Assembly (NCBI GenBank): GCA_004298675.1 | Contig: SCRI01000058.1 | Span: forward strand, 62,001-126,000 | Length of the DNA stretch: 64,000 bases | Reading direction: 5' to 3' | From: a bacterium | Lineage (GTDB): Bacteria; Vulcanimicrobiota; Vulcanimicrobiia; Vulcanimicrobiales; SCRA01 | Shown here: in pieces, positions 6,266-12,542 of the stretch | Layout: the number at the start of each line of letters is the position of its first letter | How positions within the stretch are numbered: position 1 is the stretch's first letter | Made by a program: the position numbers and the translations under genes | Notes under the pieces: generated by a model | What the model was told of the DNA's origin: nothing | The model's input: only the letters and a program-made list of their open reading frames with translations | Database searches by the model: none

Positions 6266-7249
6266 TCATACGCCGGCGCGTCCGCAGAGTTCGCGAAACT
6301 TGCAACGAGCGCAGATCGGTCCAGGCTCGATCATCGGAAAGCGCTCGATGTCATCGGCACGGTTCGCGCGCGGATCGGTCAAGCGCGCACCGAGATCGCG
6401 CAGAAACTCCACGATCATCCCGTGCACGAGGGCAGCCTTCTCCGCCAGAGCGTCGATCGCGACGGCTTGATGCTCGTCCGGTGCCAAGAAGTGTACGAAG
6501 TGCCCTTTCATCTCCTCGAGCGGCGTCCCAAGCTTGCGATGAATGAACAGTGCGTAGGCACCGATCTGCAGATCGCCGGGCGCAGAGAGCCGGCCGGTCT
6601 TCCAATCGAGGATATGAACGAAGCCGTCGTTCCCTTTCACCACGACGTCCGGCGAGCCGTAGATCGTCGTGCCGTCAGCCAGCGTGGTGCGCTGAGCATC
6701 CCACGTTTCGCTGGGCGACATGATCGCCGTATGCGCCACGGGATCCACCCAGAGCAGATCGTGCGCCGCATGCGCGAAGGGAATGCGTGCATACGGGCTT
6801 TGCCGCAAGCCCTCCAGATTGGACTCGAGCTTTACGCGCGCCTGCACCACACGCTCCTCGACGTCCGCGCTGCCGTAGTAGCGTTCCGCGAGCTGCCCCG
6901 CGCCGCTGCGCGCGTCGTCGACGCCGTCACCGATCCTACGCCGCGCCAGTCGCACGCAGCGCTCGAACATTTCACGCGCCTGCGTCGCGATGCGCTCGAA
7001 GGGCACGCCGCGCTCGCCCGGGCGGCGCAGATGAATCGCCACGGCCAGCGGCTCGTGGATCGAGGAACCCACGAGCCGGTCGAGATCGCTAAGTGCTTTG
7101 AGGAAGCCGGCCTTGCGTTGCGTGGCGCTCGCGTCCTCGCTCCACCAGCCCCAACTCCCGTAGTACGTCCAGTAGTACGCGCGCTTGCAGCGCCGATAGA
7201 CGCTGTCGCGGGACCACGACCACGCGATCTCGTTCTTGAGCTCGCGCAC
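6266..7249 (-). CDS. PD-(D/E)XK nuclease family protein with AddB/Cas4-type iron-sulfur cysteines
   Basis: The 327-residue protein belongs to the PDDEXK_1 superfamily (RecB nuclease-domain, AddB, Cas4). The core motifs are GSPDVVVKG (the catalytic Asp of the PD element) and HILDWKTGR (the D-x-K element), then a QIGAYALF helix like motif QxxxY. One cysteine at residue 21 (RRCKRAYYW) plus a C-terminal CARCKFRELC (C-x2-C-x5-C) have the arrangement that holds a [4Fe-4S] cluster in AddB and Cas4. No helicase domain is present. It starts with GTG one base after the selD stop, so it is the last gene of the phn-selD operon. Its DNA-processing role and its link to selenium are unknown. Confidence 0.82.
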   Translation of the reverse strand: MRELKNEIAWSWSRDSVYRRCKRAYYWTYYGSWGWWSEDASATQRKAGFLKALSDLDRLVGSSIHEPLAVAIHLRRPGERGVPFERIATQAREMFERCVRLARRRIGDGVDDARSGAGQLAERYYGSADVEERVVQARVKLESNLEGLRQSPYARIPFAHAAHDLLWVDPVAHTAIMSPSETWDAQRTTLADGTTIYGSPDVVVKGNDGFVHILDWKTGRLSAPGDLQIGAYALFIHRKLGTPLEEMKGHFVHFLAPDEHQAVAIDALAEKAALVHGMIVEFLRDLGARLTDPRANRADDIERFPMIEPGPICARCKFRELCGRAGV

Positions 7250-7250
7250 G

Positions 7251-8300
7251 TTACGCTAAGACTACGATCTCGCCGCCGCTGCCCTCGCGCGCACGCCCGA
7301 TCGTGCAGACGAGTTGTCCGCGCCGCTCCAGCGCTTGCGCGAGTGCCGCCGCGCCTGCGGGGGGCACGGCGATGAGCAGTCCCCCGGAAGTCTGCGCGTC
7401 CGACAGCGCCAGACGCAGCGCGCCGCCCACGGCTTGGTCGAAGCGTACGAAGGCCGCGTGCTGGCTCGCGTTGTCCTTGGTGCCTCCCGGGACCTCACCG
7501 GCCTCGATCAGTGCCGTGGTGCGCGAGAAGAGCGGTAAGGCGCGTGCGTCGATCTCGAAGGTCACGCCGCTAGCGACAGCCATCTCGTGAGCATGGCCCA
7601 GGAAACCGAAGCCGGTGATGTCGGTGCACGCGTGCGCGCCCGCTTCCAGCGCCGCTTCGGAGGAACGCGCGTTCAGCGCGGCCATGGAGCGTACCGCCTC
7701 CTCCATCACGTCATCGCCGATGACGCCGTGCTTGAGTGCCGTCGAGTAGATGCCCGTTCCCAGCGGCTTGGTAAGGAAGAGCTGGTCGCCCGCCCGTGCC
7801 GTGTCGTTGCGCAGGATGCGCCGCGGATCCACGAAGCCCGTGACCGCCATGCCGAACTTCGGTTCGTCGTCCTTCACGGTGTGCCCGCCGATGATGCTGA
7901 CGCCCGCTTCGCGGCAGGCGTCGGCGCCGCCGCGCAGGATCTCGGCAAAGACGTCGTCCGGCAGCGTCCCCACCGGAAACGCCGCGATGTTCAGCGCCGT
8001 GACCGGCCGGCCGCCCATGGCGTACACGTCCGAGAGCGCGTTGGCGGCGGCGATGCGGCCATACGTGAACGGATCGTCGACGATGGGCGTGAAGAAGTCG
8101 ACGGTCTGCACCAGTGCCAACTCTTCCGAGATGCGGTAGATGCCGGCGTCGTCGAACGTGGCGGTTCCCACCAGCACGTTGGGGTCGGTAATGGGCGGCA
8201 AGTCGCGCAGCACGTGCGCGAGGTCGGCGGAGCCGACTTTGCTCGCTCACCCCGCGCAGGAGCTGTAGGCGGTCAGACGGATGGATTTCGCGATGGTCAT
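7251..8300 (-). CDS. selD: Selenide, water dikinase (selenophosphate synthetase) containing selenocysteine
   Basis: SelD makes selenophosphate from selenide and ATP, the selenium donor for Sec-tRNA and 2-selenouridine. The frame from ATG 8300 reads SIRLTAYSSCAG, then UGA (8249-8247), then ASKVGSADLAHVL, and runs without break into the full enzyme. The UGA is codon 18, aligned with catalytic Cys17 of the E. coli enzyme. The usual second Cys is Ser and the conserved Lys is kept. Length is 349 residues, normal for the family. Further signatures are VDFFTPIVDDPFTYGRIAA, NALSDVYAMGG, IIGGHTVKDDEP and DAQTSGGLL. The ATG overlaps the phnE stop as ATGA, so translation is coupled. Starting at 8213 would give an enzyme without its catalytic residue. 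Confidence 0.95.
8218..8246 (-). promoter_or_regulatory. Candidate bacterial SECIS hairpin of selD
   Basis: Directly after the in-frame UGA the mRNA can fold. A 5-bp lower stem (GCGAG with CUCGC) is followed by a 4-base CAAA bulge, a 6-bp upper stem (GUCGGC with GCCGAC) and a UCC apex. Bacterial SECIS elements sit in this place inside the coding sequence and bind SelB. The loop lacks the preferred G unless the closing C-G pair opens, so SelB binding is inferred. Confidence 0.7.
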
Positions 8301-9691
8301 GTTGTTTCGTTGTTCCAGCCCAGCCGTCGACGGACCCGCTCTCCGGCCACGTCGGCCAGGACCACCAGCAGCCAGGTGGCCACGACGTATGCCGTCATCG
8401 ACTGGTAGTGCATGTGCTGCTGTGCGTTGTAGAGAGCTTCACCGATTCCGCCCGCGCCGATCATCCCGACGACCGTGGCGGCCCGCACGTTCCACTCCAA
8501 CCGGAACATGGTGTGGACGGCCAGCGGGCCGATCGCCAGCGGCACGATGCCGAAGGCGACGATCGCCAAACGCTTCGCGCCGGTAGCCTCCAGCGCCCGG
8601 ACGGGCGCGGCCGCCACGTTCTCGAACGCTTCGGCGAAGAGCTTGCCGAGCACGCCTGCGGAGTGGATGCCCAACGCCAGTGCCCCCGCCAGCGGTCCGA
8701 TCCCCGCCGTCACCACGAAGATCAGTCCCCACACGATTTCGGGAACGGCACGCGAGATGTCGAGCACGCGGCGCACTGCGGCAACGACGACCGCGTGAAC
8801 GACGTTGCGTGCGGCGCAGAGTGCCAGTGGAATCGCCAACAACAGCGCCAGTATCGTGCCTCCGACCGCAATCTCCAACGTCTGCCACAGCAGTACGGGC
8901 AGTGCCGCCAGCGCCCGGGCGTCCAGCAGTGGCGGAAACATCGCGGCGAACGTCACCAAGGCGTGGCGGAGCACGAAGACCTGCGGCGGGTTGAGCAGCA
9001 TCGTGGCCAGTCCGGCCGGAAAGAGCACGAGCGCGAGCCGGGGATTCTTGCGCATGAACCAGCCGAGCGTGTCGACGAACGTCACGAGCAGTGCGAGGAT
9101 CACGATCAGCGTGGTGGCACGCGGGTAATCCAGACCGCTGACGGCGCCGACGAGCTCGGTGCCGATGCCGCCGGCTCCGACGGCGCCGACGATCACCGAG
9201 GCGCGCATCGCGCACTCGAAGGCGTAGGAGCCGAAGGTCAGCAAGTCGGCCAGCGTCAGCGGGATCAGGCCGAAGATCGCGACTGCCAGGCGCGGTGCGC
9301 CGGTGGAACGCAGCGACTCCAGCGGAGCCTGCGGAGCCGCCAAGAAGAGCTCAGCGAAGACTTTGCCGACCATCGCCGTGTAGAAGACGGCGAGCGCCGT
9401 GATCCCCGCGGCCGGCCCCAGCCCCACGATGACCACGGCTAAGATCGCCAGCGTGAGATCCGGAATCGCGCGCAACGCCGAGAGCACGCCCACCACGCTT
9501 TGCCAGCCCGGGGCACGCGTGCCGACGTAGGCGGCCAGCGGGATGCCTAGGCAGAGCGCGACCAGCATCCCTGCAGAGGCCATGCCGATCGTCTGCAGCA
9601 CGGGGAGCCAGACATAGCGCAGGTACGAAGGCGAGAGATCCGGAGGGAAGAACGCCAGGAAGGTATGCCAGGCCAGCGTGAGCGCGTGCAT
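8297..9691 (-). CDS. phnE: PhnE-like ABC transporter permease, tandem fusion of two permease domains
   Basis: The 464-residue membrane protein contains two copies of the PhnE permease fold. Each copy has its own EAA loop: SLRSTGAPRLAVAIFGLIPL (about residues 130-150) and ALEATGAKRLAIVAFGIVPL (about residues 380-400). Each also has a VGAVGAGGIG or VGMIGAGGIG signature. The usual gene codes for one such domain of about 260 residues acting as a homodimer, so this fusion supplies both halves of the channel. It begins one base after the phnC stop and ends in an ATGA overlap with selD. Family members move phosphonate, phosphite or related oxyanions. The coupling to selD raises selenium oxyanions as a possible substrate (inference). 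Confidence 0.9.
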   Translation of the reverse strand: MHALTLAWHTFLAFFPPDLSPSYLRYVWLPVLQTIGMASAGMLVALCLGIPLAAYVGTRAPGWQSVVGVLSALRAIPDLTLAILAVVIVGLGPAAGITALAVFYTAMVGKVFAELFLAAPQAPLESLRSTGAPRLAVAIFGLIPLTLADLLTFGSYAFECAMRASVIVGAVGAGGIGTELVGAVSGLDYPRATTLIVILALLVTFVDTLGWFMRKNPRLALVLFPAGLATMLLNPPQVFVLRHALVTFAAMFPPLLDARALAALPVLLWQTLEIAVGGTILALLLAIPLALCAARNVVHAVVVAAVRRVLDISRAVPEIVWGLIFVVTAGIGPLAGALALGIHSAGVLGKLFAEAFENVAAAPVRALEATGAKRLAIVAFGIVPLAIGPLAVHTMFRLEWNVRAATVVGMIGAGGIGEALYNAQQHMHYQSMTAYVVATWLLVVLADVAGERVRRRLGWNNETT

Positions 9692-9692
9692 G

Positions 9693-10430
9693 CTACGAGG
9701 CGAAGACCAGCTGCTCCGGCGCTACCTGCGCCACCGGCCGATCGAAGACGACGCGCCCGTGGCGCAGCCCAACCACGCGGTCGAAGTAGCGTACCGCGAG
9801 ATCGGGTTGGTGTAGCGAACAGAGCAGAGCCAAACCACGCTCCCGCGCCAAACCGCAGAGCAGCGCGAGGATCTGCTCGCTGCGCACGGGATCCAGCGAG
9901 GCGACAGGTTCGTCGGCCAGCAGCACGGAGGGGCGCTGCACCAGGGCGCGTGCGATGGCTACGCGCTGGCGTTGTCCGCCGGAGAGATCGGAGGTGCGGC
10001 TGCGCAGTTTCTCCGGGATGCCGACGCGCTCGAGCGCGCTGCGGGCCTCGCCTAGCTCGGCTTTGCTCGGGCTCACCAGAAAACGTAACGCATGCAGTGA
10101 GCTCCAGCGCCCCAGGGCTCCCGCCATCACGTTTTGGTAGACGGTGAGGCGGTCAACGAGGTCGTGCATCTGGGCGATGACGGCGATGCGCCGTCGCAGT
10201 GCACGCAGCTGCGCTCCGCGGGCCCGGCCGACCTGCTCTCCCTCGAGCGCAACGTAACCGCTTTGGACGGTCACGCTGCCATTGACGGCGCGGAAGAGCG
10301 TGGTCTTGCCGCCGCCGCTGGGTCCCACCACCGCCACCCGCTCGCCGCCTTCCACGCGCAGGCAGACGCTCTCTAGCGCCGGTGCGGTCTGGGTGGGGTA
10401 GCGGACGGTGAGGTCGACGATGGAGAGCAC
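9693..10430 (-). CDS. phnC: PhnC-like ABC transporter ATP-binding protein
   Basis: This 245-residue ATPase powers the PhnDE transporter at the inner face of the membrane. Visible are Walker A GPSGGGKTT near residue 37, a Q-loop (IAQMHDL), the ABC signature LSGGQRQRVAIARAL, Walker B VLLADEP and the H-loop SLHQPD. The VDRLTVYQNVMAGALGR segment is typical for PhnC. The GTG start at 10430 lies 4 bases after the phnD stop. It shares an operon with the binding protein, permease, selD and a nuclease. Confidence 0.93.
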   Translation of the reverse strand: MLSIVDLTVRYPTQTAPALESVCLRVEGGERVAVVGPSGGGKTTLFRAVNGSVTVQSGYVALEGEQVGRARGAQLRALRRRIAVIAQMHDLVDRLTVYQNVMAGALGRWSSLHALRFLVSPSKAELGEARSALERVGIPEKLRSRTSDLSGGQRQRVAIARALVQRPSVLLADEPVASLDPVRSEQILALLCGLARERGLALLCSLHQPDLAVRYFDRVVGLRHGRVVFDRPVAQVAPEQLVFAS

Positions 10431-10434
10431 GACG

Positions 10435-11301
10435 CTACATCATGCCCAGCGCGCGGGCCACGCCGCGCAGCGTATCGTATTCGGCGTCGTCCGCGTGCAC
10501 GAAGTGCTTGCCGCGCAAGATGTCGAGTACGGCCCCGTCGCGCGGCTCGCGCAACCCCAGGAAGGCATCGGCGAAAGCCTGGCGCTCCGGGGAGCCGAGG
10601 TCCTTGCGCGCCACCCAGACGTAGTCGACGAACGGCGGCGTGGTATAGAAGACGCGTACCTTGCTCCCGTCGATCTGTTTGTTCTCGACGAGCGCATGGA
10701 AGACGCTCTCGTCTAGGGCGCCCGCGTCGACGATACCGGCCTCGACGGCCTTGGCCGTGGCGGGGTGGTTTCCGGTGAAGCGGTAGCGCAGAGCGTGGTC
10801 GGGATCGATGCCGTTCTTCTGCATGTAGTAGTACGGCATCAAATGGCCGCTGGTCGAGTTGGTGTCACCGAACGCGAAGCTCTTGCCGCGCAGGTCCGCC
10901 AGGCTGTGGATATCCGAACCGCTCTGGGTGATGAAGAGCGAGTGGAAGCGTTGGTCGCTTGAGCGCTGAACGAGCGGGATCACCCCGTAGCGCGCGTGCG
11001 CCTGAACGTACGTAAGCCCGCCCAGGTAGGCGAAGTCGAGCGACGCGTTGCCCAGGGCTTCGACGGTGGCGTTGTAGTTGGTGGGAATGACCAAGTCGAC
11101 GTCGTGTCCGGTCTTGCCGGCCAAGTAGTCGCGCAACGGGCGCTTCTCGTCGACGGAGACCTGCGTGGCCCCGGCGTCAGGGATCATCCCGACGCGCAGC
11201 GGTGCGGCCGCCGCCACGGCGGCCGGCGCCAACATGCCCGCGGCGAAGAGGACGCCCGAACCTTTCAGGAAGCGCGTGCGGCTGATGGGCGAGAAGTGCA
11301 T
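10435..11301 (-). CDS. phnD: PhnD-like phosphate/phosphonate (oxyanion) binding protein
   Basis: The 288-residue extracytoplasmic binding protein catches the substrate for the PhnCE transporter. The leader PISRTRFLKGSG before a hydrophobic run resembles a Tat signal with a split Arg pair. The mature domain begins LRVGMIPDAGATQ, with the family elements VSVDEKRPLRDYL, LDFAYLGGLTYVQA, DLRGKSFAFGDTNSTSGHL and AGALDESVF. The frame is open further upstream, but the ATG at 11301 has AGGAGGG about 13 bases before it and starts the signal peptide, so it is chosen. It is the first gene of the operon and divergent from prfB. PhnD relatives bind phosphonates, phosphite or hypophosphite. The true ligand is not known here. 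Confidence 0.9.
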   Translation of the reverse strand: MHFSPISRTRFLKGSGVLFAAGMLAPAAVAAAAPLRVGMIPDAGATQVSVDEKRPLRDYLAGKTGHDVDLVIPTNYNATVEALGNASLDFAYLGGLTYVQAHARYGVIPLVQRSSDQRFHSLFITQSGSDIHSLADLRGKSFAFGDTNSTSGHLMPYYYMQKNGIDPDHALRYRFTGNHPATAKAVEAGIVDAGALDESVFHALVENKQIDGSKVRVFYTTPPFVDYVWVARKDLGSPERQAFADAFLGLREPRDGAVLDILRGKHFVHADDAEYDTLRGVARALGMM

Positions 11302-11425: not shown

Positions 11426-12542
11426 ATGAGCGATGCTACCCGTTCCGAGATCATACGATTGCGCGCGCAGCTGGAGCGGCTGCGGGTGCGTCTTTGACTA
11501 CGCCAAGCATCGCGATCGCCTGAAGGAGCTGGAACGCGCTTCGCAGACGTCTGATTTCTGGGAGGATGCCGCCGCGGCGCAGGCTGTGATGAAGCGGATC
11601 GCCGATCTGCGCGCCGAGACCGAGCCGCTAGAGCGCGTGGCACGCACCCTCGACGAGGCCTGGGAGCTGCTCGAGCTCATGGGTGACGAGGCCGGGGCCG
11701 ATGAGGAAGCCGGGCGCGATACCGCCGCCGCCGCTGCCGAATTGGACGGGCTGGAGATGGCGGCCAACTTCGACCGCGAGTTCGATCATCACGGCGCGAT
11801 CGTCTCGATCAACTCGGGCGCCGGCGGAACCGACGCCGCGGATTGGGCGCAGATGCTGCTGCGGATGTACGTCCGCTGGGCCGAGCACCACGGCTTCGAG
11901 GTGCGCTACAGCGACGAAACGCCCGGCGACGAGGCCGGCATCAAGAGCGCCACGTTCTTCGTGCGCGGCCGCAACGCGTACGGCATGCTGGAGAGCGAGC
12001 GCGGCGTCCACCGCCTGGTACGGATCTCCCCGTTCGACGCCGCGCACCGGCGCCATACGGCCTTTGCCAGCGTGGACGTCGTGCCGGAGTTGGAGGCCGG
12101 CGAGGGGCAACTGGAGATCAAGCCGGACGAGATCCGCATCGAGACGTTCAAGAGCGGCGGCGCGGGCGGCCAGTACGTCAATAAGACCGAGTCGGCCATC
12201 CGCATCATTCACCTCGCCACCGGCATCATCGTCTCTTCGCAGCAGGAGCGCTCGCAGATGCAGAATCGTGACGTCGCGATGTCGATTCTGCGGGCGAAGC
12301 TGCTGCAGCGCGAGTTGGACGAGCGCGACCGTAAGTTGGCCGAGCTGCGGGGCGAGAAGCTCTCGACCGAATGGGGCAGCCAGATCCGTTCCTACGTCCT
12401 CAATCCGTACCAGCTGGTCAAGGATCATCGCACCGGCGTCGAGACCGGGAACGTCACGGCTGTGCTCGACGGTGAGATCGATCTCTTCATCTGGCCGTAC
12501 CTGCAGCAGCGCGGGCGTTTTGCCGGCAGCGCGGTGACGTGA
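11426..12542 (+). CDS. prfB: Peptide chain release factor 2, with programmed +1 frameshift
   Basis: RF2 ends translation at UGA and UAA. The gene needs a +1 shift. Codons 11426-11494 (23 codons, MSDATRSEIIRL...) end at CTT followed by TGA at 11495-11497. Reading resumes at GAC 11496, giving DYAKHRDRLKE and a 371-residue protein. The GGQ motif (SGGAGGQYVNKTES) that triggers peptidyl-tRNA hydrolysis and the SPF tripeptide (VRISPFDAAHRRH) that selects UGA are both present, so this is RF2 and not RF1. Low RF2 lets ribosomes pause at UGA and shift, giving autoregulation. The glycosyltransferase gene overlaps its stop by four bases (GTGA). Confidence 0.96.
11484..11498 (+). promoter_or_regulatory. 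prfB +1 frameshift site (CTT TGA C)
   Basis: The slippery CTT, the UGA stop and the following C match the conserved prfB recoding site. The upstream GGGTG at 11484-11488 can serve as the internal Shine-Dalgarno-like stimulator, although it is weaker than the E. coli AGGGGG element. Correct shifting is supported by RF2 homology continuing directly in the +1 frame. Confidence 0.9.

Follow-up and report, generated by a model that had tools for sequence, protein, structure and literature searches.

The selD gene in the window, the 64,000-nucleotide stretch of contig SCRI01000058.1 analysed here, is almost certainly an ordinary functional selD with selenocysteine (Sec) as its catalytic residue, Sec insertion and enzyme activity being predicted from the sequence. 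With TGA read as U, the frame gives MTIAKSIRLTAYSSCAG-U-ASKVGSADLAHVLRDLPP... and continues to a TAA at 7251, and the TGA at codon 18 is the only one in frame. The read-through product matches TIGR00476 over profile positions 1-309 of 311, scoring above the cut-off of 125 bits (Table 1), and can be aligned over almost its whole length with E. coli SelD (3u0o), which places the U at Cys17. Lys20 and the motifs DD, DFF, N..SD and TD.TGFG are retained; judged against 3u0o and 110 relatives, the protein thus has the residues expected of a SelD: a catalytic Cys or Sec, the conserved Lys, and the Asp residues for metal and ATP. Translation, profile score and alignment together bear out the first-pass annotation, which had proposed a SelD with an in-frame UGA at the catalytic Cys codon.

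Table 1. Features of the selD region and of a second selenoprotein gene (positions in the window unless a contig is named).
Feature	Position	Strand	Description and evidence
selD, selenide water dikinase	7251..8300	-	349 aa, Sec at residue 18; TIGR00476 386.5 bits
In-frame UGA (Sec codon) at the position of E. coli Cys17	8247..8249	-	Translation, alignment
SECIS-like apical hairpin	8203..8221	-	UCGCGCA-CGUGC-UGCGCGA; RNAfold, pair counts
Second small hairpin, between the UGA and the SECIS-like hairpin	8223..8237	-	GUCGGC-UCC-GCCGAC; G-C/C-G compensatory pair in relatives
phnE-like fused double permease	8297..9691	-	464 aa; TIGR01097 362 bits (cut-off 216.7) in two stretches; both halves PhnE-like
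phnC-like ABC ATPase	9693..10430	-	TIGR02315 239 bits, just below the cut-off of 266
phnD-like substrate-binding protein	10435..11301	-	Signal sequence; TIGR01098 182.5 bits (cut-off 112); PF12974 228.7 bits
Formate dehydrogenase alpha (FDH alpha), in-frame UGA	Genome contig C87, locus L178, 2292-5126	-	Second selenoprotein

As had been foreseen, a gene caller that does not decode UGA loses the active site: mechanical ORF calling finds the earliest start past the TGA at GTG 8213, which opens a 320-aa ORF. The existence of this ORF is the one point in favour of taking UGA as a true stop, with a truncated SelD being made or the gene decaying, but such a product would have neither the catalytic residue nor Lys20, and the codons ahead of the UGA are conserved at the protein level in both genus and order. 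Within the genus, codons 5-17 differ at 0 to 5 synonymous versus 0 to 2 non-synonymous sites and look protein-coding; the remainder of the gene is intact, and its 97 synonymous versus 48 non-synonymous codon differences to the same-genus genome G002 indicate that it is under purifying selection. The UGA is, moreover, kept across many genomes, and truncation or decay is very improbable.

Conservation was followed in 61 genomes of the same genus and order, and the codon itself was read in 110 SelD loci; by SelD identity, the named relatives are Candidatus Eremiobacterota MAGs, and on this ground the window is assigned to that phylum. All three same-genus genomes (G001-G003) have TGA at this codon, and many same-order genomes, including most of those with a full selD, carry one in-frame TGA, while some have none. 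Across the 110 loci the catalytic codon is TGA in 52, TGC in 43 and TGT in 15, and no other codon occurs. That relatives alternatively encode Cys would fit a UGC or UGU that was misread in sequencing or misassembled, and the first-pass annotation had asked whether close relatives with a sense codon would expose a misread; yet the same TGA is found in three other species of the genus, assembled separately, and in many members of the order, including most of those with a full selD. It is therefore not due to chance or read error, and the error explanation, refuted by these assemblies, is the least probable of all those considered. Nearly all selDs in a sample of 151 Bacillaceae genomes (the family of Cytobacillus firmus) have UGA as well. 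Two selDs of different type, one with Cys and one with Sec, lie apart in genome G055 (loci L152 and L153), and G042 has two UGA-type copies.

The active-site motif of the window protein reads GUASK, with Ser as second active-site residue. The first-pass annotation was right about this Ser, but its view of it as a notable difference did not hold, and we dropped Ser at position 20 as a novelty: at the position of E. coli Cys19 the 110 loci have Cys in 56, Ser in 33 and Ala in 21 cases, and since all three are common there, Ser is unremarkable. Cys19 is dispensable in E. coli SelD.

Downstream of the UGA, RNAfold predicts a SECIS-like hairpin with a 7-bp stem, a 5-nt loop CGUGC with GU at positions 2-3 and an MFE of about -10.8 kcal/mol, the loop beginning 32 nt past the UGA. 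It satisfies every constraint given for bacterial SECIS elements, i.e., a loop of 3-9 nt, a stem of 4-16 bp, a G in the first two loop positions, a loop 16-37 nt after the UGA and an MFE of at most -7.5 (PMC13188914). All six core stem pairs are present in 22 of 22 UGA-type selDs of Eremiobacterota versus none of 12 Cys-type genes, and outside this phylum in 19 of 30 UGA-type versus 0 of 46 Cys-type selDs. In an alignment of 20 sequences, 11 have GC and 9 have CG at one pair, with zero mispairs. The covariation score is 0.178, compared with 0.084 for shuffled alignments, and none of the 500 shuffles or of the slid controls reaches it; three sequences do not preserve helix 1 of the proposed structure. 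Because kinship can inflate the shuffle test, the contrast between Sec-type and Cys-type genes is the stronger evidence.

The genome that holds the window, that of an uncultured bacterium, is a draft of 3.03 Mb in 87 contigs, 98.5% complete. It encodes selA (542.9 bits, cut-off 268), selB (302.9 bits with neighbours in frame, cut-off 242) and a tRNA-Sec (selC; 71.7 bits, above the Rfam cut-off) with anticodon TCA (UCA), all three on one contig. The proposal that this organism possesses selA, selB and selC is thereby substantiated, and with both selB and tRNA-Sec present, the absence that had been named as a possible refutation is not observed. The search for further selenoproteins covered FDH: its alpha subunit has one in-frame UGA only, flanked as ARI-U-HSSTVPGLGTSFGRG (also given as ARI-U-HSSTVPGLGTSFGRGGATTF), which we take to be the FdnG/FdoG Sec site. 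Going by these sequences, the organism uses selenocysteine and has two or more selenoproteins. A search of the genome for MnmH found none; SelD thus evidently serves Sec and not selenouridine.

The complete set of selA, selB and tRNA-Sec also argues against decoding of this UGA by another route, such as a general code change or Trp or Cys suppression. We found no point that supports such a route, and UGA serves as a stop too, ending phnE within an ATGA overlap with the selD start (ATG 8300-8298) that is retained in G002 and G003. The aligned residue in relatives is, furthermore, Cys, and the hairpin appears only in UGA-type genes, which makes decoding of this kind highly unlikely. The gene for RF2, the UGA release factor (prfB, 11433-12542, plus strand), lies next to phnDCE-selD in divergent orientation in each of the four genomes of the genus, and its frame appears continuous, without the usual programmed frameshift.

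Under Sec decoding, the selD mRNA would be read from ATG 8300 with translation coupled to phnE. At the UGA, SelB on the hairpin about 30 nt downstream would bring Sec-tRNA(Sec), and translation would continue to the TAA. The product would convert selenide and ATP to selenophosphate, from which SelA would form the Sec-tRNA(Sec) required for FDH alpha and for SelD itself. The upstream phnDCE genes probably take up selenite or selenate, a selenium oxyanion that would feed SelD; gene linkage suggests this step, to which the near certainty of the Sec assignment does not extend.

Sec-type SelD is known in prokaryotes, as the first-pass annotation had stated: it makes up 19% of the prokaryotic SelDs detected in a reference set (PMC4561486) and is described as the “second most expansive” prokaryotic selenoprotein family (PMC13188914). 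The arrangement is already common in bacteria, and the case in the window is well supported. With other Sec-containing SelDs (SEPHS2-type, TIGR00476) the window protein shares Sec in place of the catalytic Cys17, the downstream hairpin and selA/selB/selC; it shows no essential difference from them, being set apart by its motif GUASK and its lineage, Eremiobacterota, which our literature search did not find discussed together with selenocysteine.

The more interesting detail is that the operon of selD also encodes a possible selenium importer. The genes phnD, phnC, phnE and selD are co-directional in this order, with spacings of 4 and 1 nt followed by the 4-nt overlap of phnE and selD; the phnD-like gene probably starts at ATG 11301, its listed ORF extending to 11643. 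The run of prfB, D-C-E-selD, a PD-(D/E)XK nuclease-superfamily gene and Peripla_BP_6 is kept in three same-genus genomes. The PD-(D/E)XK gene (6266-7249, minus strand), which begins 1 nt past selD and is kept in the genus, is possibly co-transcribed with it and has no known selenium link.

The window PhnD falls within the phosphate/phosphite/phosphonate substrate-binding subfamily TIGR01098 (score in Table 1). Its best NCBIfam match is TIGR04553, a putative selenate ABC transporter substrate-binding protein, at 229 bits and so below the cut-off of 250, with same-genus relatives at 226-235 bits; against the PhnD equivalog TIGR03431 it reaches 153 bits (cut-off 261). In the Eremiobacterota order, a TIGR04553-type match occurs in 15 of 61 genomes, 13 of them over 200 bits, and in none of the 10 genomes without a true selD, too small a number to tell. 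Besides its score, the window differs from TIGR04553 systems in its order D-C-E-selD and its fused 464-aa double permease; a member of that family in Sphaerotilus lies in the order mnmH-C-E-D-selD.

An alternative, to which we give somewhat under an even chance, is that the substrate of the transporter is phosphite, phosphate or phosphonate and that its place upstream of selD is coincidental. The closest plasmid homologue (57.6%) belongs to a phnD-phnC-phnE-ptxD operon of Burkholderia vietnamiensis, which has a fused permease like the window phnE, and among solved structures a PhnD1-type protein (7s6g) and PtxB (5o2j) come closest. With the PtxABC phosphite and PhnD1 phosphite-phosphate importers the window operon shares the fold family, the STSG oxyanion loop and the gene order D-C-E, but its downstream gene is selD and not the phosphite dehydrogenase gene ptxD. 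Orthologues in the same order, about 70% identical, are located away from selD, and among their listed neighbours, read by eye, no evident selenium or phosphite genes were seen. Against coincidence stand the coupling to selD conserved in the genus, the best match to TIGR04553, and the neighbourhoods of other PhnDs in Bacillaceae and Sphaerotilus. Selenite and phosphite are similar oxyanions, a likeness that makes it chemically easy to change from one substrate to the other.

Of the named selD loci, 80 in number, six from Bacillota have phnD, phnE and phnC beside selD, in two orders unlike that of the window: Paenibacillus shows D-E-C-selD, Bacillaceae and Caryophanaceae show selD-D-E-C. In the Bacillaceae sample, the PhnD clade concerned occurs in 19 of the 151 genomes, in 18 of which phnD lies 103-386 nt from a Sec-type selD; in the nineteenth, phnD and selD are both at contig ends. 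The clade is present in 19 of 139 selD-positive versus 0 of 12 selD-negative genomes (Fisher p = 0.36), and its co-occurrence with selD is thus no guide to function. A third arrangement is the one on the Sphaerotilus plasmid. In a small PhnD tree, computed with rows L085 and L196 left out, the selD-adjacent PhnDs occupy separate places; as the tree warns of long branches, only this coarse separation is used.

Four Bacillaceae and Caryophanaceae loci (L085, L087, L115 and L116) have a Sec-type selD between a family 4 glycosyltransferase gene and phnDEC, followed by a polysaccharide deacetylase gene. The glycosyltransferase matches NF038229 best and SenB weakly (80 bits vs 300), and the cluster is possibly one for a selenosugar or another selenium-containing small molecule. 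The PhnD-like protein encoded close to the second selD of G055 (L153) was rejected as a further case, being only a 60-bit match that adjoins an acyl-CoA dehydrogenase gene.

PhnDCE-type importers thus adjoin selD in at least three unrelated lineages and in different gene orders. Such repeated adjacency by unrelated members of the family argues for a selenium substrate and supports, without proving, import of a selenium oxyanion. The fuller proposal is that phnDCE together with selD would form a dedicated high-affinity selenite/selenate importer, the PhnD/PtxB family having supplied selD with such importers on at least three occasions (in Eremiobacterota, Bacillota and Betaproteobacteria); on these gene neighbourhoods, we regard it as evenly balanced. 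The name that NCBI gives to one branch, TIGR04553, “putative selenate ABC transporter”, already implies the importer idea. Our search of the literature on TIGR04553 or selD-phnCDE operons returned one annotation line, and no paper testing or discussing the idea was found.

For annotation, the Sec codon means that a standard gene caller would truncate the window selD and lose its active site. For selenium biology, the operon gives a testable candidate for specific selenium uptake, with a linkage that is repeated in unrelated lineages. According to a 2026 review, a specific high-affinity system for selenium transport is yet to be identified in prokaryotes (PMC13188914); if the proposal is true, the phnDCE importer would be the system that this review calls missing.
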